64,000 nt of DNA, taken from the NCBI GenBank assembly GCA_039545355.1, contig BCJJ01000017.1, positions 372,001 to 436,000 of the forward strand, read 5' to 3'. The DNA comes from Trichosporon coremiiforme. Lineage: Eukaryota > Basidiomycota > Tremellomycetes > Trichosporonales > Trichosporonaceae. Positions 25,549-56,908 of the stretch are shown here, piece after piece; position 1 is the stretch's first letter; every line of letters begins with the position of its first letter. The notes beneath the pieces were generated by a model. That model did no database searches and was not told where the DNA came from. It worked only from the letters and a program-made list of their open reading frames with translations. A program made the translations under genes and the position numbers.

Positions 25549-28348
25549 CTGCCGTCAGTACTGGCTATCGGAGGTGGTGGAGAAGAGCGCGGCGGTGTGG
25601 AGCACAGCGATCGCAGAAGACCGTCTCGTGTCTCCGTCGGAGACAGGCGAGCAGGTCGCTCGCAGGCCGTACGCCACGACGCCAAAGTCGGCTTTGCTCA
25701 GGGTGACTCACCGCAGCGTGGCTTCGCGGCTGGAGTTTGTTTTCCGGACTCCTTTCCTCTGTGCCCAGGGGGGGGGGAGGTTTCTCGCCCTCGGGCTTGT
25801 TGTTGATCGTCGATACGTTCGGATCGCTGATCGGTTGGAAGGATCCTCGTTACCGCGGCAGTTGGTGACGTCGCTGTTCGCGCTGCCGTTGGTCGTAAAC
25901 AGAACAAAGAAGGGAGGAAGAGGTGTGGAGTAAAGAGACAGACAGCGATGAATTATCGACAAGAGGAGTCTGCTGAACGAGGTCGAGGTCGTCGCATGGA
26001 GAATCCGAACTCCACAGCGCCCAGCGGCACTCACCGCTCGGCACTCCCGGCATGGATCCATCGTGTACGGCGTTCTCACGTGTAGGTCCTCGTAGAGCGG
26101 GTATCGCCGCCGGACTCTCCGTCCACCGGGGCGTGTGGTGCTGGGCCCCACTTTGCATGTTGCCCCCGTGACGGCTGATTGCCGCGATCTGCCAGATCCT
26201 CATTCGCTGTCAACCCTCTCATGGCTCGCTTCACGCGAACCTCTCTGTCATGTGTTTGGCTGTGGAACAGGGTAAGGGAGAGGATATACAAAGTGGCGAC
26301 CTGCAAGCAGGAATAGAACCGACACTGGCTCCTGCCGTCCCGTCATACCGGTCATACCACTCCGTCCAGATTCTGCCTTATGCCCGCATTGCCCACAAAG
26401 ACTTCATCTGAAAGTGGAAGATGGGCGCACCGGGGCCGCAACATGAGAAGGCAAAGCGGAAACATGACGTCGACCAAGAGTCTAGCCAAGAGACTAGTCG
26501 GTATTCTGACCTGTGGATTCCGCTGATCGTGTGTGGGTGACGGTGCCCCAGACGTCGTCGGTCTCCGTCGCTTTAGGCTCGAGCTAGTGCAGCAGACCAA
26601 AGTCATCGGCGACTTGCGCGACAGAACTAGCATAAGTGTGACCTCGTGACGCTAGAGTGGAAATCGAACTCCGAGCCCCGGCCCACTCCATCATTCCTCG
26701 TCGCTCCTCGCCGCTGTCTGTTGCCTCCGCAGAGCCAGTGCTGGATCAAGTGATCCGCTGATCTGGAATACGGGGACAGGAATGCGAGCAGCACTCGTGT
26801 TCCGTCGGTACAGCATCCGCATTGTGCGGAACTCGGGCATGGCCACCTTTCCGCTGGAAAATCCACAGAGATGGGCAGTGGGAGGCGCCGCCGCGGATTG
26901 CAGCCCGAGGAATGCAGCGATCACCATCCACTTGGTCTGGACCAGTGTAGCGCGGAGTTTGCTTGCATTGCCCGCTACATCTCTCTGCCTTTGAGGGGAG
27001 TACATAAGCACCCAGAAGGTCAGGTGGTGTGGAAGGAAATCGCAGAACGCCGAAAGAACGTGCAGGTGATCAACGTTTATGATTTCTCTCGGCGTTCATC
27101 CCATGACATAGGTTTTCTTCGCTCTTCGCCGTCAATACCTGGCGCTTACACTGACCGAGCTGAGTCAGTCGATACCGCTCACTCAGCTCCTCATGTCAGG
27201 TGACTCAGCATGGGAGGTCCTTCCAATGCCCTTGGGACGTACGCCGTCTTGTCCGAAACAACACTCAGCGCGTACTGACTAACCGCCAGTCCAGTGTCTC
27301 GGGCCATCACCGTTAAGCTCACCGGCCACACGCTCCGCGGGGGTGATTTGTCAGGTGAATCTTTGTCAGACAGAGTATTGAGGACACGTTGCCTGCTCTG
27401 GGCGCTTAAGTGAGTTGAGGTGCAGAGGGCCTGAGTACAGAGGGGCTGAGGTACAGTGAGGGTTGAGGCTTGGCGAAGGGCGAGTGAGGCGCGAGGGGTC
27501 GGAATGCGACCGTTGTGGAGGTGGCCGATGGCGCCTGATTTTGTGTAATCAACGGGCAATTGATTCATTTGGCGGTCGCGGTTTGTCCGTGAACATCGAC
27601 ACATTTCAGCAGGGCCAGAGCAATGGCTTCATTTTGGAACGGTCTTTTTCTGAAGCGCCTCACGCGCCTGCTTAGGCGCCTGGTTGTTGTCAGCGGACGC
27701 TCGCGAAGATCGCAGCATACCTCCCCCACTTCCTCCCCAACTCACGGAAGGTACGCGCACGAGCGCCATCGCTTCGACCCGCCAACAGAGCTGCTCGCGT
27801 GTGGCAGATCGTTCGCTCCCTCAGTTACGGTGTTGCGTGTGTACCGCTCCTCTGGGACCTTCTGTACCTCTCATACCACTGCGATAAACTGTGCCTAAGG
27901 TGTACCTCGTAAACAGAGGACCCGCGAGGTTGTCCCTCCGACAATCGGTGAATGGGTGGCGTAAGCGAGGGAGGATGGGGTGAGCTGCAGCTCGGACCTC
28001 CTGCTTTCGAGGATGAGGAGGTGGTGGTCCTTGGCGCTCTTCAGTGCCTCGAACTCCCCGCTCCCTCGGAGTGACAGTTTTAGGGGAGGAGAGAGCTCAG
28101 ACCGCCGTTTCGGGTGACCCGACCGTATCTCTGCTCAGCATGTTGTCTCGCCTCCTCCATTGTCAGGATGATGGGTGAGCAAGGCTGTCGCTCTCGTTTC
28201 GCAGCTCGACGTGCCCGTCCCCCTCCGTCGCGGACGCTCGGACCGTCGACCCACATGCTTGGGTCGGTAACCTCGTCTACCCCGCCTCTTCCTCTGAGCT
28301 CGTTTCTGCATCAGTTACGCGCCAGGGTACGAGACAGAGACAGCCGCC

Positions 28349-48692: not shown

Positions 48693-48799
48693 GGCGTTGT
48701 GGCGGAGTGGTTAACGCGGTTGACTCGAATGGTCTCCTTCGGGAGGGATTCAGGAATCAACTTCCTTCGGGAGCGCATGTTCGAATCATGTCAACGTCG
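48693..48799 (+). tRNA. tRNA-Ser (CGA), 26-nt intron
   Basis: The acceptor GGCGTTG pairs with CAACGTC, discriminator G. Anticodon stem GTTGA/TCAAC, loop CT-CGA-A then intron 48730..48755, then A. A short TCC/GGA variable arm marks a type II tRNA. T arm GCATG-TTCGAAT-CATGT. A TTTT terminator follows at about 48805. Reads the UCG codon. Confidence 0.95.
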
Positions 48800-49162
48800 T
48801 AAATCTTTTGCCATCATGGGTCCCCTTTTTTTTTGGCCCCGTTGCAGGTTTGAAGGAGAGGAGAATGATGTGGACACAGGTGTTGGATGCATTGGAGATC
48901 TGGAGCGGAGGAGTTGAAGGTTGTGAAAGGTGATGGGGCGTTGTGGTGGGGCGCAACACGGCGCAAGTGAGGGAGGGCTGCTGGACCGCACGGCCGTCGT
49001 CCATCGAAAAAACAGCATGGTATGTTCTCCGGGCCGTATGCATAATTTATACTGCTATCGTTTATGCATGCGAAGAAGCGACTAGAGTAGGACTGCAAGG
49101 TTGGAGTGTCGGGTGGGTAGAGGGCAGTGGCCAGTGGACGGGGCCGGAGTTCAAGTTGCGTA

Positions 49163-49189
49163 GAGCATGTTCGACACATGTCAACGTCG
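49163..49189 (+). pseudogene. tRNA-Ser 3'-end relic 1
   Basis: T stem, T loop (TTCGACA) and acceptor 3' strand CAACGTCG identical or nearly identical to tRNA-Ser(CGA), preceded by GAG as in the variable arm. No D or anticodon arm lies upstream. Confidence 0.8.
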
Positions 49190-49338
49190 TCTTGTCTGTC
49201 CTCTCGATTTCACACGCTGGCTCCCCATGACTGAAGAACGAGGGGGATGCAGCAGAGATGTGTGTAGGCTATGGTGGACGCAATCGTGCATGCATCAGCA
49301 CTGGGGCAAGGCGAGGCGGACAGAGCGACCCGCCCTGC

Positions 49339-49365
49339 GAGCATGTTCAAATCATGTCACTGTCG
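49339..49365 (+). pseudogene. tRNA-Ser 3'-end relic 2
   Basis: The T-arm region reads GCATGTTCAAATCATGTC, then ACTGTCG. Compared with the intact genes there are changes in the T loop (G to A) and the acceptor strand. No 5' half is present. Confidence 0.7.
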
Positions 49366-49386
49366 CGACTGAGCGAGTCGCTCGTA

Positions 49387-49412
49387 GAGCATGTTCGAAT
49401 CTTGTAACATCG
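49387..49412 (+). pseudogene. tRNA-Ser 3'-end relic 3
   Basis: GCATG-TTCGAAT followed by CTTGTAACATCG: an intact T loop with a mutated T stem and one base lost before the acceptor strand. The five bases before it (CGTAG) match those before relic 1. Confidence 0.75.
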
Positions 49413-49442
49413 TACTGCCCGTTCAGGAGGGTGCAGGGCACA

Positions 49443-49467
49443 GGATGTTCAAATCACTTCAACATCG
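49443..49467 (+). pseudogene. tRNA-Ser 3'-end relic 4
   Basis: GATGTTCAAATCACTTCAAC, then ATCG: acceptor strand CAACATC as in tRNA-Ser(AGA), with a damaged T arm. No 5' half is present. Confidence 0.65.
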
Positions 49468-50312
49468 CATGCCACCTTTTGACTTCGGTTTGAAGAAATT
49501 ATGACCCCTCGGACAGACAACTACATGCATGACACGCCATCTAGGGCGCGTTCGAAAAGCGCGTAGTGTGGCCGGCATAAGAGGACAGAGACTGTGGGAT
49601 CCGAAGACTTTCCAGTGTCTAGGGAGTGGAGCACCAGCACCTACAGTAGAGGATGATGCAGTTTGTCATGATAGGAGGAGGGAGGGCGTCGAGCTGGGGC
49701 AGATTAAAGACAGAGGCGGGAGTCCGCATCGTTGCGAACTTGAAGGCTGACTGCGTGTCGGAGGTTGTGAAGCGAGATCGAGAGGTGGGATGAGGCTCTC
49801 CGACCCTTCTGCGGTGGCTTACGTAGTCGCTGGACACTCTCGATACCATGGCTCCGAAAACAACCAGTGAGCCTGTTCTCCTGGCACTGTCAGCCTGTTA
49901 TTGGGCAGGCTATGCGACTCGCTGGCATGGCATGCGCAGGCTCGACCACGGCGCCCTTCGTAGCCACGGGGAGTTGAATCCTGGTCGCGACAACGAGAAC
50001 CTATTGACCTCTGCTCTGTTCCAAATATTCCGTTGTCCACCATCAAGGTAACGCCTGATCTCTCCGTGAACAAGTCTGAAAAGGGTGCAGAGCTCAGACA
50101 GCCCGATGGCGGAAGCACGGCGACTTCTGTCTCACCCTATTTTACGTCACTCCGACTGACCTCACAGCCCTCCGTTCTACTTCTAGATTACCGTATCACT
50201 CCGCCATGCGTACCAGCCTCTATCTTGCAATAGCAACGTGCTGACAGCAGTGCAATGAGGGCTCCGCTGGGCTCGACCGCGCGCTCGGCGCCGCCTCCAG
50301 CGAAATAACCCA

Positions 50313-50428
50313 GGTGCTGTGGCGGAGTGGTTAACGCGATTGACTAGAATCTAGTTCTTCTCTCGTAAAGAGAAGATTGGGTCGATCAATTTCCTTCGGG
50401 AGCACATGTTCGAATCATGTCAGCATCG
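50313..50428 (+). tRNA. tRNA-Ser (AGA), 35-nt intron
   Basis: Acceptor GGTGCTG with CAGCATC, discriminator G. Anticodon stem ATTGA/TCAAT, loop CT-AGA-A, intron 50350..50384. T arm ACATG-TTCGAAT-CATGT. A TTTTT terminator follows directly. With inosine at the first anticodon position it reads UCU, UCC and UCA. Confidence 0.95.
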
Positions 50429-50883
50429 TTTTTAGCTGTTTGCAGTCCTTGTCAGAGCTCGGAGACGGCCTAGGAGATGGACCAGAGAGGAACAGACGAC
50501 TCGGTTTGGTGCCGATGGAGACCAGGAGGACGTTGTTGCGGAGTCTTACCGGCCGGAAACGTTATCGGCGTATCTTTCTCCGGGACAGCCCCTGGTCGAT
50601 GGGAGGCTCTAGCCTTGGCTGGTGCCCAGGGAATGATACAGCGACCTCGTCGGGCGCCGGCATGTGACCCTCGGAATCTGATGCGGAGCGATGTCGGCTG
50701 CCACACTACTGCACCCACGGAGCAACCCTTCTGCCCTCGGACGCGTGCCCCGCCTTTCCACCCAATGATCCCTTACTGCCCTCACCCGGCCAACGATGCA
50801 GTCCCTGTTTTGTTCTGGAGCATGTAGACGCCGATGCAGCACTCGGCGCTGCCCCGATCCTGGATTTCAGCGTATCACGCTCG

Positions 50884-50992
50884 GGTGTTGTGGCGGAGTG
50901 GTTAACGCGATTGACTAGAATCTGAAGCCTTCAGAAGGAGGCGATTCCATCAATTTCCTTCGGGAGCACATGTTCGAATCATGTCAACATCG
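50884..50992 (+). tRNA. tRNA-Ser (AGA), 28-nt intron
   Basis: Acceptor GGTGTTG with CAACATC. Anticodon stem ATTGA/TCAAT, intron 50921..50948. Same body as the other AGA copies; TTTT follows at 50995. Confidence 0.95.
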
Positions 50993-51398
50993 GCTTTTGC
51001 TCCTTGTGCGTGCTCAATAGGGTGTAGAAGGGTTGGGAAGGGCCTGGGGTGCGTGGAGGGTCAGAGGATGAGTGGGGAGTCGCCATGCGAAGATGTGAGG
51101 AGACGTTGTGGCACATAGCAGCCAATCACATGTGAAACGAGCTTTCTGCAGAACTGTGATGGCTGCAGCAAAGGCATAGGGGATGCTACTGGCCACGTAG
51201 GGTTCACGAACGCAACCTGGGAAAGTTGTGGCGGCCGCTTCACCACCTTCCGGGCCGGTGCTCTCCCACCCCCACCCAGCGACCAAGCTGAGGACTGTTC
51301 TCTGCCGCTTCTCGGAGTCGGTATAAGCCTCCTCACCGCCATACACACAACAAACTGTCAGTGCAGCGCACTCTGTGGCCTTCAGGAGCTTCTCTTCA

Positions 51399-51503
51399 GG
51401 TGTTGTGGCGGAGTGGTTAACGCGATTGACTAGAACTCGAAGCCTCTTCAGGCGGTTCCATCAATTTCCTTCGGGAGCACATGTTCGAATCATGTCAACA
51501 TCG
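51399..51503 (+). tRNA. tRNA-Ser (AGA), 24-nt intron
   Basis: Acceptor GGTGTTG with CAACATC, anticodon AGA, intron 51436..51459, TTTT terminator at 51505. Confidence 0.95.
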
Positions 51504-51838
51504 GTTTTAGGCCTCTGGTTGCTTCCCAGCGTGTTCTGTCCACTTGAGACGGAGTCGGGAAGCGGTTCTGGGGTACGGGAGCCCGTCCGGGCCGAAGGAG
51601 GGGCCCTATACCCAGGACTGGCTGGTAACTGTACGCGTAAGTCAATCCGTTTGGTGGGATTCGAGCGGCTGTGCAGGCTTTCGTATCTTACTGAGAGCCG
51701 AAGGCGTCGATGCAATGGATCCAATGATATCCTCCGGCTCTCGTCGCTCTCATCGCTTCCACTCCAATCTTGGACAACTTTTGCCTCACCGACCACGCCG
51801 CCAGTTACACTCAGCTCCTCGACGGTGAGGGCGTGATT

Positions 51839-51955
51839 GGCGTTGTGGCGGAGTGGTTAACGCGGTTGACTCGAATGGTCTTTGGCTCTCAGGAGCCCGA
51901 GAGGTTCAGATATCAACTTCCTTCGGGAGCGCATGTTCGAATCATGTCAACGTCG
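51839..51955 (+). tRNA. tRNA-Ser (CGA), 36-nt intron
   Basis: Acceptor GGCGTTG with CAACGTC, anticodon stem GTTGA/TCAAC, anticodon CGA, intron 51876..51911, followed directly by TTTTT. Confidence 0.95.
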
Positions 51956-52402
51956 TTTTTGGCTTCTTCGGGGGCTTGCGTGACACCAGAGACCCGTAAG
52001 CTTGAGGAGAGAGTGCACCTGCGGCTATGGGAGGAAGAAGAGTGGGAACTCTCGAAACCGACTGGGCCAGGTGTTTCGGCGGTGATGAAGGACCCTTCTG
52101 GGGGCACCGCCTACTACTGGCGCTTTCCCGTGACTCTCAGAATGGCCGGAAGACGGAGGACAGAGAAGCAGGAGGGTGTGGTGAGAGAAGAGGTGGATTC
52201 TCTCAAAATTGCTGCGCCCGCCACAGCGTCAATCCGAGATCACATTAGCAATCCCCTCAAGGTCGCCTTCGCCACGATGGCCAGTTTAGACGGCGCTCCT
52301 CTGTCCTTCTCCCTGCCCCATTTGGAACAGGCTCTGCTACTTCTCAGCGCTGTCGCCCGGGCCTATCGTACTCGTTCCAGGACCGCAGAGCCGGACAGGA
52401 GC

Positions 52403-52515
52403 GGCGTTGTGGCGGAGTGGTTAACGCGGTTGACTCGAATGGTTTCTCTGGCAACAGAGAAGGGTTCTTCTATCAACTTCCTTCGGGAGCACATGTTCGA
52501 ATCATGTCAACGTCG
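52403..52515 (+). tRNA. tRNA-Ser (CGA), 32-nt intron
   Basis: Acceptor GGCGTTG with CAACGTC, anticodon CGA, intron 52440..52471 containing a TTCTCTG/CAGAGAA hairpin, TTTTT terminator. The T stem has the AGA-type ACATG form. Confidence 0.95.
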
Positions 52516-52921
52516 GTTTTTGGCACCCCGGCGTCTCTCTGCGTTGCCAGATGCACGCGGATGTCAATGTGAACGTCCCACGACACCGAGGAGCAGATGT
52601 GAAGGCGGTCAAGGCTCCCGGAACACTGGGCTACCCAACGGATGAACGAACAGGCACCGTGCCGTTGTCGGCTCCTATAGCCTGCACGAGCAGCTCTAGG
52701 AGGTGAGCGAGTTCAAGGGATGCGAATTGGAGCCCTCGCGGCATGGTGAGATACGCGATGACACCAGCCGGTCGCCCACCCTTTCACTTCTTTTCAACCA
52801 TCCCTCAAACTAATCACGCCCGCTGTGGTGCCCCTTTGCAAGCTCTACCCTCCGTGGTTCTCACCGCGGTCCCACACACCCAGCCACATACGTTCGGCGG
52901 TCTCCAGTCGCTGACGTAATC

Positions 52922-53031
52922 GGCGTTGTGGCGGAGTGGTTAACGCGGTTGACTCGAACGGTCTCTCACATCGAGAGGGGTTCTGCAATCAACTTCCTTC
53001 GGGAGCGCATGTTCGAATCATGTCAACGTCG
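52922..53031 (+). tRNA. tRNA-Ser (CGA), 29-nt intron
   Basis: Acceptor GGCGTTG with CAACGTC, anticodon CGA, intron 52959..52987 with a CTCTC/GAGAG hairpin, TTTTT at 53034. Confidence 0.95.
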
Positions 53032-53275
53032 TCTTTTTGGCTTTCTGTGCTTCAGGAAACGTCCCAAACCCATCCCAGAGTGATTGCGGATGTTAAAGGA
53101 GGGATTTCGGTAAGGGTACACCAACTGAGTGAACATCGGATGCTGCCGAGGCGAAATCGTTGCATGTCGTGCCTGTCCTCTTCCCAGTGCAGCGCTCCCC
53201 ATCTCCGCGAGCTCCAACGCCGCCGCCGCGTGCGCGGCGCCGCCACCACCGCGCGACGGGAAGGCTTTCATATCT

Positions 53276-53356
53276 GGTGTTGTGGCGGAGTGGTTAACGC
53301 GATTGACTAGAAATCAATTTCCTTCGGGAGCACATGTTCGAATCATGTCAACATCG
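53276..53356 (+). tRNA. tRNA-Ser (AGA), intronless
   Basis: An exactly 81-nt gene with a contiguous 7-nt anticodon loop CTAGAAA between ATTGA and TCAAT. Acceptor GGTGTTG with CAACATC, followed by TTTTT. It is the only array member with no intron. Confidence 0.95.
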
Positions 53357-53800
53357 TTTTTGCTGCTCTTCTGGGCTGCTTGGGAGCCGGGTGGCTTGCG
53401 GAAGGTTGTCGGCTGGTCAGGGAAGACGGAGCTTGGACAAATGAGGTGTAGGGGAGGGGTAGCGGGCGAGTGGAGTCTGCAGCTCTCTGTACTAGGACAG
53501 GAGGTGGGTGAACTCCTCAAGACGAATATCTGGCATTCTCACTCCTGCGAGGTCCCGGTAAACGATGGTAAACGATAACGCAGTGGACTTAAGGCCATCA
53601 ATGCGCGTGTACGGAAAATGGCGAATATTCAGATGAGTGCCACACATCACCCCACTGTACCAACACACAGCCCGCGCCCCCCTCCATCTTGCCTTTCACC
53701 CAACGTCCTCAATCCACCCTACTGCTCTCTCCGCGATTCTTCCACACTTCCCCAACTCATCCATCGCCCAACTCTACACACATCAGCCAGCCAAAAAAGA

Positions 53801-53894
53801 CGATGCTGACATGATTCAAACATGTGCTCCCGAAGGAAATTGATCGAACTGTTCAAGTTCTAGTCAATCGCGTTAACCACTCCGCCACAGCACC
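53801..53894 (-). tRNA. tRNA-Ser (AGA), 13-nt intron, T-loop variant
   Basis: On the minus strand: acceptor GGTGCTG with CAGCATC, anticodon stem ATTGA/TCAAT, anticodon AGA, 13-nt intron, then a poly-T terminator. The T loop reads TTTGAAT instead of TTCGAAT, replacing the near-invariant C56 of the B box, so transcription or folding may be weakened and the gene may be decaying. Confidence 0.8.
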
Positions 53895-54755
53895 CTGTCA
53901 GTTCCTGAGAGATGGTTGGTTACGACCCAGCCCGGCGGATTGCGATTTTTATGAGTTTCGTCGTGTTGCGCGTCGCGGGTGTATTGTGTGTGAGACAGAG
54001 GTGGCAGTCCACCTCCCCGTCATCTGCTCGACTACAGCGACGTTCGTTGGCGGCACGACCTTTGTTCGAAGGGACCTCCAGTTCGACGCACGGACGAGCC
54101 ACCATCTCCTAGATGCACAGGTGCCGCGGCTCCCAGTGGCTGTGCACAAGGTGGCGCTCGGAGCACGCGGCACACAATGCGTCTAAACGTCCCATTGTTC
54201 CTCCATCCGCTGTTCTCCGAGTTCCGGGATCCGTTGATAACGGAGTGACATGACGGAGCGTTTCAGACTAAGCGGAAACGCGGCCTTGGTTGGCAAGGTG
54301 ATGGTGGTCCGATGTCGTCGGTGTTCCGAGGGCTGCATTGTGGCGAGATAAAAATAAGTGTTCTGTATTTCATGTCGCTGATGGTCCCTCCAAGCTCTGG
54401 ACCGGGGATAGATCCCCCGTCGTCAGGACTTTGCTCGATAGTGGCAGACAAAGACGTTCACTGCGAGATCCGAGATGACGAGAACAGAGCTGCGTCGTTT
54501 CCTCGGCGACAAGCGTCGCGACCTCCGGCGTACTTCCACAAACAATGACATTCTCCTCTCACCGAGCAATGGATACCGCCGTTCTTCACACACATATCGA
54601 GCTACCTGTAGGTCTCAGCCAAAGACACAGCCCCCCGCACAGCTATATAAGCCGTTGATTGGAATGTGAAACGACCCAGATCCCCACCAATCACCAAACC
54701 TCTCTCCTCTACACATCCTAACAAAACCAACCCAAACCACCCCAACAAGCCCACA
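53895..54755. other. Intergenic region upstream of pheromone candidate 1
   Basis: No coding region is supported. The right end holds a TATA box (54644-54650) and an A/C-rich leader of about 90 nt. Confidence 0.4.
54644..54650 (+). promoter_or_regulatory. TATA box of pheromone candidate 1
   Basis: TATATAA, 106 bp before the ATG. A TTCCAATCA motif in reverse orientation follows at 54656-54664. Confidence 0.65.
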
Positions 54756-54857
54756 ATGATCGCCAAGAACGACGCCCCCACCAACGAGTTCATGACCGAG
54801 CACGGCTTCTCGGGTGAGGCCCGTCTCCCCGAGTTCTCGGCCTGCCTCATCCTCTAA
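54756..54857 (+). CDS. Lipopeptide mating-pheromone precursor candidate (CaaX CLIL)
   Basis: An intronless frame of 33 residues starting MIAKNDAPTNEF and ending ACLIL, a C-terminal CaaX box. Basidiomycete pheromone genes encode such short precursors: the Cys is prenylated, the last three residues are removed, and the N-terminal part is cut off to leave a small lipopeptide that binds a Ste3-type receptor. An E-H pair near residue 16 fits the charged processing site of many family members and would leave a 14-residue peptide, GFSGEARLPEFSAC. The final Leu would favour geranylgeranylation rather than farnesylation in the classic rule. Support comes from a TATA box, a long A/C-rich leader and a paralogue 475 bp away with the same start context. 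The ORF is too short to be safe on its own; the paired features make it credible. Confidence 0.72.
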   Translation: MIAKNDAPTNEFMTEHGFSGEARLPEFSACLIL

Positions 54858-55332
54858 TCGGCTTTCGCCTCCCTCGAGGCGCGCTTCGCTCACCTTCGCC
54901 TAATATAGGTGTTCACGGGATACATTGTAGTGAAAACCCTTATGCAGACGCAGAAGCGCATCTCGTACTCTACTCCTTGCTACTAGGAACTGGGAAGGAT
55001 GGCGCAAGTCAGTCAATGCGTCAGTGGAGAGAAGGAGGAGTGGACACACATGCATGTCAAACACCCCCCGGGGGAGACTAAACTAGGATCTGTCTGCCGG
55101 GTCGCTGAGCATCCGAGGTGGGGTAAAGGGCACGAATGGTCCACACCAGTCGAGGGAAGGGTTGAGTGAGGTGGGGGAGGAAGGAGAGAACGAAGGTCGG
55201 CTACAATAAATCGAGAAGATCTGAGATCGTACGGCCAGGGCGGCGCCAGTCACAGACCGGCAACCGGCCGGCTTCGACGAGATATTCTACGGCCGAAAAG
55301 CATTCGGCGCAGTGGCACAGCCTGCTGGCCGC
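54858..55332. other. Spacer between convergent pheromone candidates
   Basis: 475 bp between two stop codons. Shared 3' flank with no further small CaaX frame that I could find. Confidence 0.4.
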
Positions 55333-55440
55333 TTACATGACGACGCAGGCTCCAGTGTGCTCCCCCAGGATCTTGAAGGTGCGGGCACGATACTCCTCAA
55401 AACTCTCCTGGTTGACAGGGGCGCAGTCGTTGGCGATCAT
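55333..55440 (-). CDS. Lipopeptide mating-pheromone precursor candidate (CaaX CVVM)
   Basis: An intronless frame of 35 residues on the minus strand, starting MIANDCAPVNQESF and ending GACVVM. The terminal CVVM is a good farnesylation-type CaaX box. After an EEYR charged motif the remaining ARTFKILGEHTGAC is 14 residues, the same length as the predicted peptide of the convergent partner. The leader just before the ATG (CCCCAACAAGCCACA) is nearly identical to that of the partner, and TATATAA lies about 100 bp upstream in both. The N-terminus is recognisably related (MIA-ND-AP-N) but the presumed mature peptides differ completely, as expected for paralogous pheromones. The main alternative is a chance short frame, which the shared architecture argues against. 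Confidence 0.75.
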   Translation of the reverse strand: MIANDCAPVNQESFEEYRARTFKILGEHTGACVVM

Positions 55441-56908
55441 TGTGGCTTGTTGGGGAGTTGGTAAGTTGGAGGTGGTGTGGATGAGTTCTGAGTTGGGGAG
55501 GTTGGGTTGCTGAAAGCAGAAGAAGTCGGCGCGCGGAGCGCTTTATATACCTGTTCAGACACCTGTTCTTTAGCTCGTCTCTAGCCTGATGGTGCCCTTC
55601 CGACGAGGAGAAGGTCCCAAGTCGCCGAGTTACGAAGTTGAATAGCCCTTGTTGTGAAGCGATAACGAGGTAGTGGACATCGAGTCGTTTCAGTTTCCAA
55701 TCAAGCTGGCTTCTTCAAAATCCAATCAAACCTGACGTTTGTTACCAGCAAGACATTCCAATCATCTACGGCCCAAAATAGATGATGTCAGGCGTATATC
55801 CAGGATACACTGGAGGTGATATGTGTACTGGACGACGAGCAGAGCACAGTCTTGTGGCGGTGGACGTCGGAGTGGCTCGTATCCGTGGGAGGAAGCCTCA
55901 TTCCGATCAAATGTGACCCCGGCCCCCCATGCTTTTTGAGTGTAGACATCCGGTCTCTGACGAGGAATGCCGCAGCTTAATGCATGGGTAAGGGCTCTAC
56001 TGTGTCAACTGCGCAATTGGACCCTCTCACTTGCCCGTAAAAGCAATTGTCACAGGGTGTCTGCTGCCAGCGAGAGGCCGGCTGTGTAAACCCACTGCTC
56101 CGCCGTGTTCGTGCCACCCTTGCACTCGGACGGGAGAACAGACGAATCGCGGTGACAGCGTGTGCAGCGAAGGAGATCTCTGGCGACCGGAGCGTTAAGA
56201 AGGTGGCCGCGATGACATTGCGCTTGAGGAGAAGGAGTGAAATTATCTGAGCAGAGCCATGTTGTGAGGCGGCGATGAGGGTTCCTCTTGCGAAGCAGCC
56301 AGACGTTGGGGACTATGAGCGTCGTGTGTTGAGAAGCTGTGCAAAGGCGGGGGAGGGTCGATGCGCGGCGGTCATCGCGGGGGAAGGCGATGTCCAGGCA
56401 AGCCATAGCTGCTTGCAGTTGCCAGAGCTGTCCACGCCAATTGCCAAGGGAGTCTTTCAGGCGCCCCTACTGACCCACCCCGGAGCACATGTGATTCTCG
56501 GCAGACCCATGACTCGAAGGAGGAAGCACTGTGGTGAGTATGATGCAAAGGAGGCAAGCGGATCGAGTCAGAGTTGTGTTAGTCGGGTGATTAGAGATTA
56601 GTCGGCAGTGATTAGCGCGCTGATTAGCGCCGGAACCAAATATTTGGAGTTTCACTATGAGCAGTGCATCACTGATACAAGACAATCACTACACGAGGCA
56701 GTGAGCCGTCGGGGTAAAGAGGTTTGGCTCCTGGTCGCTGTTGCGACCACGATGCCAAGTTTTTATGCCTATGAGAGAGAGAAGAGAGTGGTGGAAATGC
56801 GAGGGAAGAAAGCGTAAATGGTTGTGGAGTGGGTTGGTGTGTGAAATAAAATGCTCTTTTAATGGTGGTAAAAAATTATCACTTCGGATCAACAACAACG
56901 TTGCCACT
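55441..56908. other. Promoter of pheromone candidate 2 and SSC1 3' flank
   Basis: About 1.5 kb. The first ~330 bp carry the TATA box and three TCCAATCA copies. The remainder has no supported gene. Confidence 0.45.
55541..55550 (-). promoter_or_regulatory. TATA box of pheromone candidate 2
   Basis: GTATATAAAG on the minus strand, about 100 bp before the ATG. Further upstream, TCCAATCA occurs three times: at 55695-55703, 55720-55728 and 55756-55764. Confidence 0.65.

Follow-up and report, generated by a model that had tools for sequence, protein, structure and literature searches.

The accessible part of a study of Trichosporonales by Sun et al. (2019, PMC6730849) describes fused MAT loci in which the HD and P/R genes lie about 55 kb apart. 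Two MAT allele types are reported there, along with hybrid strains that hold two MAT alleles, and each allele has one pheromone gene, located near STE3. By that account no sexual cycle has been observed in the order, and unisexual mating was proposed for it. In Cryptococcus, also a tremellomycete, the genome has multiple pheromone genes, which lie within MAT, are oppositely oriented and often divergent (accessible part of PMC12510652). Pheromone-like genes without a role in mating type are already known in mushrooms: Agaricus bisporus has CaaX pheromone-type precursors of 44-54 aa, with mature parts of about 11-13 aa, that are unlinked to mating type, and species of this kind carry several STE3-like genes (accessible part of PMC8305134).

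Here, we examine two short genes, F1 and R1, in a window of 64,000 nucleotides (C17:372001-436000) from a Trichosporon coremiiforme genome of 42,036,993 bases in 134 contigs. A second such pair, F2 and R2, lies on contig C5. Like the MAT pheromones described for Trichosporonales, F and R are short intronless ORFs whose CaaX end fits the consensus; they differ in being longer, in forming a convergent pair in each gene set outside MAT rather than occurring singly near STE3, and in the regulation of R (compared with the accessible part of PMC6730849). With the STE3-linked pheromones of their own genome they share the M/P-x-N start and a TATA box near −100, and F also shares their ACAAWG clusters. 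As in Cryptococcus MAT, there is more than one gene per genome and the orientations are opposite, although the genes here are convergent and outside MAT. The resemblance to A. bisporus lies in CaaX precursors unlinked to mating type, whereas F and R have 33-35 aa with about 20-22 predicted in the mature part, and one STE3 was found per MAT region; this comparison was made by description rather than by sequence. In the open-access literature searched, we found no earlier report of non-MAT pheromone genes in Trichosporonales; the supplement of PMC6730849 may list these ORFs.

A convergent pair of short CaaX genes

The following two ORFs were identified with their translations:

54756..54857, plus strand: F1, a 33-aa pheromone-type precursor, MIAKNDAPTNEFMTEHGFSGEARLPEFSACLIL, CaaX box CLIL
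55333..55440, minus strand: R1, a 35-aa pheromone-type precursor, MIANDCAPVNQESFEEYRARTFKILGEHTGACVVM, CaaX box CVVM

Coordinates, lengths and C-termini all reproduced those of the original prediction. The genes are convergent, with their stop codons separated by 475 bp. A TATATAA had been placed about 100 bp before each ATG and was seen at −112 in F1 and at −109 in R1. The two leaders had further been called almost identical; this holds for a stretch of ~14 bp running up to the ATG, together with the first codons (CCAACAAGCC[C]ACA-ATGATCGCC), whereas the remaining leader is merely CA-rich in general. The near identity of this short stretch suggests that the pair originated by an inverted duplication.

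Nine tRNA matches (Rfam) adjoin the pair at 48693-53894, eight on the plus strand and one on the minus strand. Most are 105-117 bp long, and the long ones probably carry introns. Two were identified as tRNA-Ser(AGA) by ARAGORN, and comparable tRNA units are also present next to F2/R2 on C5.

The second pair on contig C5

The counterparts of F1 and R1, the latter found within the homeologous stretch, are:

C5:487039-487140, plus strand: F2, homeolog of F1, MIANAEAPVNEYLNRWGFSDKARLPEWAGCVVM, 48% identical to F1
C5:487614-487721, minus strand: R2, homeolog of R1, MAASKDPAPVNADWYEDYQKMIEWRMTHGMYCVVM

These genes are convergent like F1/R1, have equal lengths and keep their CaaX boxes, both of which read CVVM. 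The same HSP70 and tRNA genes flank both pairs. Blocks on the HSP70 side are 82-84% identical in DNA between C17 and C5, and the non-coding DNA around the pairs is alignable in short blocks only. Homeodomain genes are likewise paired between C17 and C5 and between C11 and C23, with equal scores within each pair. Two diverged sets of genes thus seem to be present in the genome.

Peptide likeness was gauged with 2,000 shuffled controls, in which the first M and the CaaX box kept their places. F1/F2 reached a z of 11.8 and R1/R2 a z of 5.1, values matched by none of the 2,000 shuffles in either case. Pairs of F with R peptides gave z of 2.7 to 4.5.

STE3 genes and MAT regions

A PF02076 profile search, in which all three first-look candidates were scored, found two STE3 genes in the genome, on C11 and C23. 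The features of these regions are:

C11:829280-830467: STE3, read as a single frame (PF02076)
C23:648011-648976: STE3, in three exon pieces (PF02076)
C11:835041-835121, minus strand: STE3-linked pheromone, MAYTNEPVNQENGSVRTDGYTGCVIA, about 5 kb from STE3
C23:653902-653985, minus strand: STE3-linked pheromone, MAYKNEPVNQEIPGTGSGGFQHGCIII, about 5 kb from STE3
C23:600728: Homeobox_KN match
C11:781948: weaker homeodomain match, below the Pfam curated cut-off

Identity between the two STE3 genes is only about 26%, which makes them look like distinct mating-type alleles and not homeologs. Each is accompanied by a single pheromone gene found nearby, and on both contigs a homeodomain gene lies ~53 kb from that pheromone gene. 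From this layout and the two STE3 types, which correspond to those in the accessible part of PMC6730849, we infer a hybrid strain of Trichosporonales type that carries two types of MAT allele. One strain thereby seems to carry both kinds of mating-type receptor.

The expected linkage of F1/R1 to a STE3 receptor was not borne out: the STE3 genes lie on C11 and C23 and the F/R pairs on C17 and C5. Judged from the distances to contig ends, F/R and STE3 are at least about 0.55 Mb apart, even supposing that the contigs adjoin. Because F and R are unlinked to STE3 and each STE3 has its own pheromone gene, F and R are, as read from their positions, additional pheromone-type genes outside MAT and not the MAT pheromone genes. 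The convergent pair is present in both gene sets of a genome that also has two STE3 types.

Shared features of the six peptides

Across the six peptides (F1, R1, F2, R2 and the STE3-linked pheromones of C11 and C23), the initial M, the P, the N and the cysteine of the CaaX box never vary, and each peptide fits the pheromone-search consensus of Sun et al. (accessible part of PMC6730849). Over their full length, F and R show weak likeness to the STE3-linked pheromones (z of 1.2 to 2.7 against shuffles), so the case for common descent with these rests on the N-terminal motif, the CaaX box and the promoters. The predicted mature part, from P-x-N to the cysteine, has 20-22 residues in F and R versus 14 and 15 in the STE3-linked pair.

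We surveyed ATG-initiated ORFs of 20-45 aa in 199,258 bases for a strict CaaX end (C-[AVILMST]-[VILMST]-X), which occurred in 12 of 1,236. Half of these 12 are the six family members, a share that does not come from a random sample, as the surveyed DNA was partly chosen for containing these genes. P-x-N near the N-terminus was found in 6/6 family peptides versus 0/6 unrelated CaaX ORFs. Upstream of all six family genes there is a TATA-like box at −97 to −122, the one of R2 (TATATG) being counted only by a looser TATA pattern; none of the six unrelated ORFs has a TATA-like box within 150 bp upstream.

None of the six peptides was matched in Pfam. As this includes the STE3-linked pheromones, its silence on F and R is uninformative. 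Genome searches with F1, R1, F2, R2 and the C11 MAT pheromone returned no further family member, at a limited sensitivity at which R1 and R2 missed each other and the F1 and F2 queries missed R1 and R2. The start-motif pattern occurs at five places in the genome, comprising three known members and two unrelated sites. A 13-base TATA-context pattern was found at ten places, versus three for a reversed control pattern; four of the ten are pheromone genes, and at the other six no CaaX ORF starts within 300 bp.

Promoter elements

In smuts, the pheromone response element (PRE) is ACAAAGGGA, to which the HMG factor Prf1 binds (accessible part of PMC3248468), and in C. neoformans pheromone and STE3 genes have upstream elements bound by the HMG factor Mat2; the accessible part of the source gives no sequence for these elements (PMC3744442). 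Upstream of F1 and R1 we located the following elements:

54644..54650, plus strand: TATA box of F1, TATATAA, at −112
55543..55549, minus strand: TATA box of R1, TATATAA, at −109, in the context GAACAGGTATAT
54654..54676, plus strand: GTTGATTGGAATGTGAAACGACC, between the F1 TATA box and the ATG, identical in F2 at 23/23 bases
55684..55704, minus strand: TTGATTGGAAACTGAAACGAC, upstream of R1, related to the GTTGATTGGAATGTGAAACGACC element of F1
54174..54547, plus strand: upstream of F1, five HMG-type, PRE-like ACAAWG sites with starts at 54174, 54193 (minus), 54336 (minus), 54448 and 54542

The five ACAAWG sites of F1 recur in F2 with order and orientation conserved. Within 600 bp upstream, F1 and F2 have five sites each and the C11 and C23 pheromone genes four each, counts that were equalled in at most one of 500 dinucleotide shuffles for each promoter. 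As the ACAAWG core was picked after the promoters had been inspected, background counts matter: among 448 background windows of 600 bp, eight held three or more sites, one held four and none held five, and the sole four-site window is the C11 STE3 promoter. Three or more sites were present in 20 of 635 partly overlapping windows, 17 of which lie at or within ~1.4 kb upstream of F, STE3 or STE3-linked pheromone genes, one of these 17 sitting inside a STE3 coding region. The remaining three (25801-26400 of our window, C5:477601-478200 and L040 2101-2700) have no recognised mating gene near them; they could mark other pheromone-response genes or be due to chance.

The 600 bp upstream of R1 and of R2 contain no ACAAWG site. 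TGAAAC counts in the R1 and R2 promoters were not above shuffles, and GATTGG was raised in R1 (3/500 shuffles) and less so in R2 (32/500). With HMG-type sites in the F promoters and none in the R promoters, F looks to be under pheromone-response control and R under a different control.

The GAACAGGTATAT TATA context is common to R1, R2 and the C11 MAT pheromone gene. Of the R1 element TTGATTGGAAACTGAAACGAC, the R2 upstream region holds separate pieces only. The GTTGATTGGAATGTGAAACGACC element has no other occurrence in the genome within two mismatches, and one with three mismatches (C18:615984-616006). Near this C18 copy there is a second GATTGG/GAAAC-like element, and downstream of the copy a minus-strand frame of 410 residues. 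By eye the frame looks secreted and not like a pheromone gene; it may belong to the regulon of F.

Interpretation and alternatives

The originally proposed pheromone-precursor reading is upheld by the recurrent pair and by the M/P-x-N/CaaX frame in common with the STE3-linked pheromones. The promoters add support for F, which shares its code with the STE3-linked pheromone and STE3 genes; those of R hold no ACAAWG site. We therefore consider it probable that F1 and R1, both intact and intronless, encode precursors of prenylated lipopeptide pheromones and are located outside MAT.

For the proposed course of events, we draw on pheromone biology as given in the accessible parts of two reports, in which the peptide is prenylated, trimmed, carboxymethylated, cleaved at the N-terminus, secreted and sensed by STE3 (PMC3248468, PMC8305134). 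An ancestral pheromone gene would have given rise to F and R, the convergent pair having formed before the two parental gene sets diverged. In each precursor the CaaX cysteine would be prenylated, the last three residues lost and the cysteine methylated, and the leader would be cut near the conserved P-x-N to leave mature peptides of about 20-22 residues. Cleavage directly after the conserved Asn is a guess, modelled on yeast a-factor processing. The mature peptides would then be exported and sensed by a STE3 receptor, the likeliest being a MAT STE3, as two STE3 genes were found and each MAT region has one of them. The prediction for F is control by the pheromone-response HMG factor, as for STE3 and the MAT pheromone genes, and for R control of another kind. 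Being unlinked to MAT, F and R are expected to be carried by cells of either mating type, and their signal would most likely be independent of mating type (autocrine or same-type) rather than setting it.

A more specific and distinctly speculative proposal is that the pair forms an autosomal module in every cell, in which a pheromone-inducible F and a differently regulated R would let cells stimulate STE3 with no opposite-type partner present. If true, such a module would be a molecular basis for same-type ('unisexual') mating in Trichosporonales, and likewise for hybrids of like MAT type, the A1/A1 strain of Trichosporon ovoides being one.

The strongest alternative, which we hold to be possible yet unlikely, is that F and R are genuine genes for prenylated peptides, descended from pheromone genes but with signalling through STE3 lost, their products using another receptor or staying membrane-bound, for example in morphology or density sensing. 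The lack of linkage to STE3, mature parts unlike those of the MAT pheromones and the absence of HMG sites from R would all fit, and the pheromone-like genes and STE3-like receptors that A. bisporus has outside MAT are believed to lack a mating-type function (accessible part of PMC8305134). However, the HMG-site code of the F promoters is also that of the two MAT pheromone genes and of the STE3 promoters, and a further STE3-family receptor was not found in the genome with PF02076.

We regard it as improbable that F and R are relics, that is, formerly functional pheromone genes now decaying, with frames preserved by chance. In favour of decay, dN/dS is near 0.7-0.8 (0.39/0.47 for F and 0.65/0.89 for R), slightly below 1 and thus a weak indication that the residues are under constraint, and F1 ends in CLIL whereas the other three genes end in CVVM. 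Against it, start, stop, length and CaaX box are preserved in both pairs. In a neutral simulation with substitutions only, scored for survival of start, frame, stop and CaaX box, F stayed intact in 1.9% of runs at its measured divergence of 0.31, and R in 0.5% or 1.7% at assumed divergences of 0.40 or 0.31. Both F promoters, moreover, keep the five HMG sites and the 23-base element. All of this conservation was assessed inside one genome, between its two diverged copies.

That F1 and R1 are short ORFs open by chance, or the first exons of longer genes that are spliced, is very improbable: unrelated CaaX-ending short ORFs do exist (6 in 199 kb) and F1 contains a possible splice donor, GGTGAGG, but none of those six has P-x-N or an upstream TATA box, this sole plausible donor is not in F2, and pair, motif and promoter sites recur in the second copy.

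Read as probable pheromone precursors, F and R are an example of tiny, easily overlooked genes, whose signals either mating type may produce. Inspecting only the surroundings of STE3 can overlook such pheromone genes. With pheromone genes outside MAT, one of which (F) apparently uses a promoter code also found at STE3 and the MAT pheromone genes, the idea of unisexual mating becomes directly testable.

The CaaX boxes of the F homeologs are unlike, CLIL in F1 (54854-54857) versus CVVM in F2 (C5:487137-487140). CLIL would favour geranylgeranylation and CVVM farnesylation, so the difference would alter the attached prenyl group.
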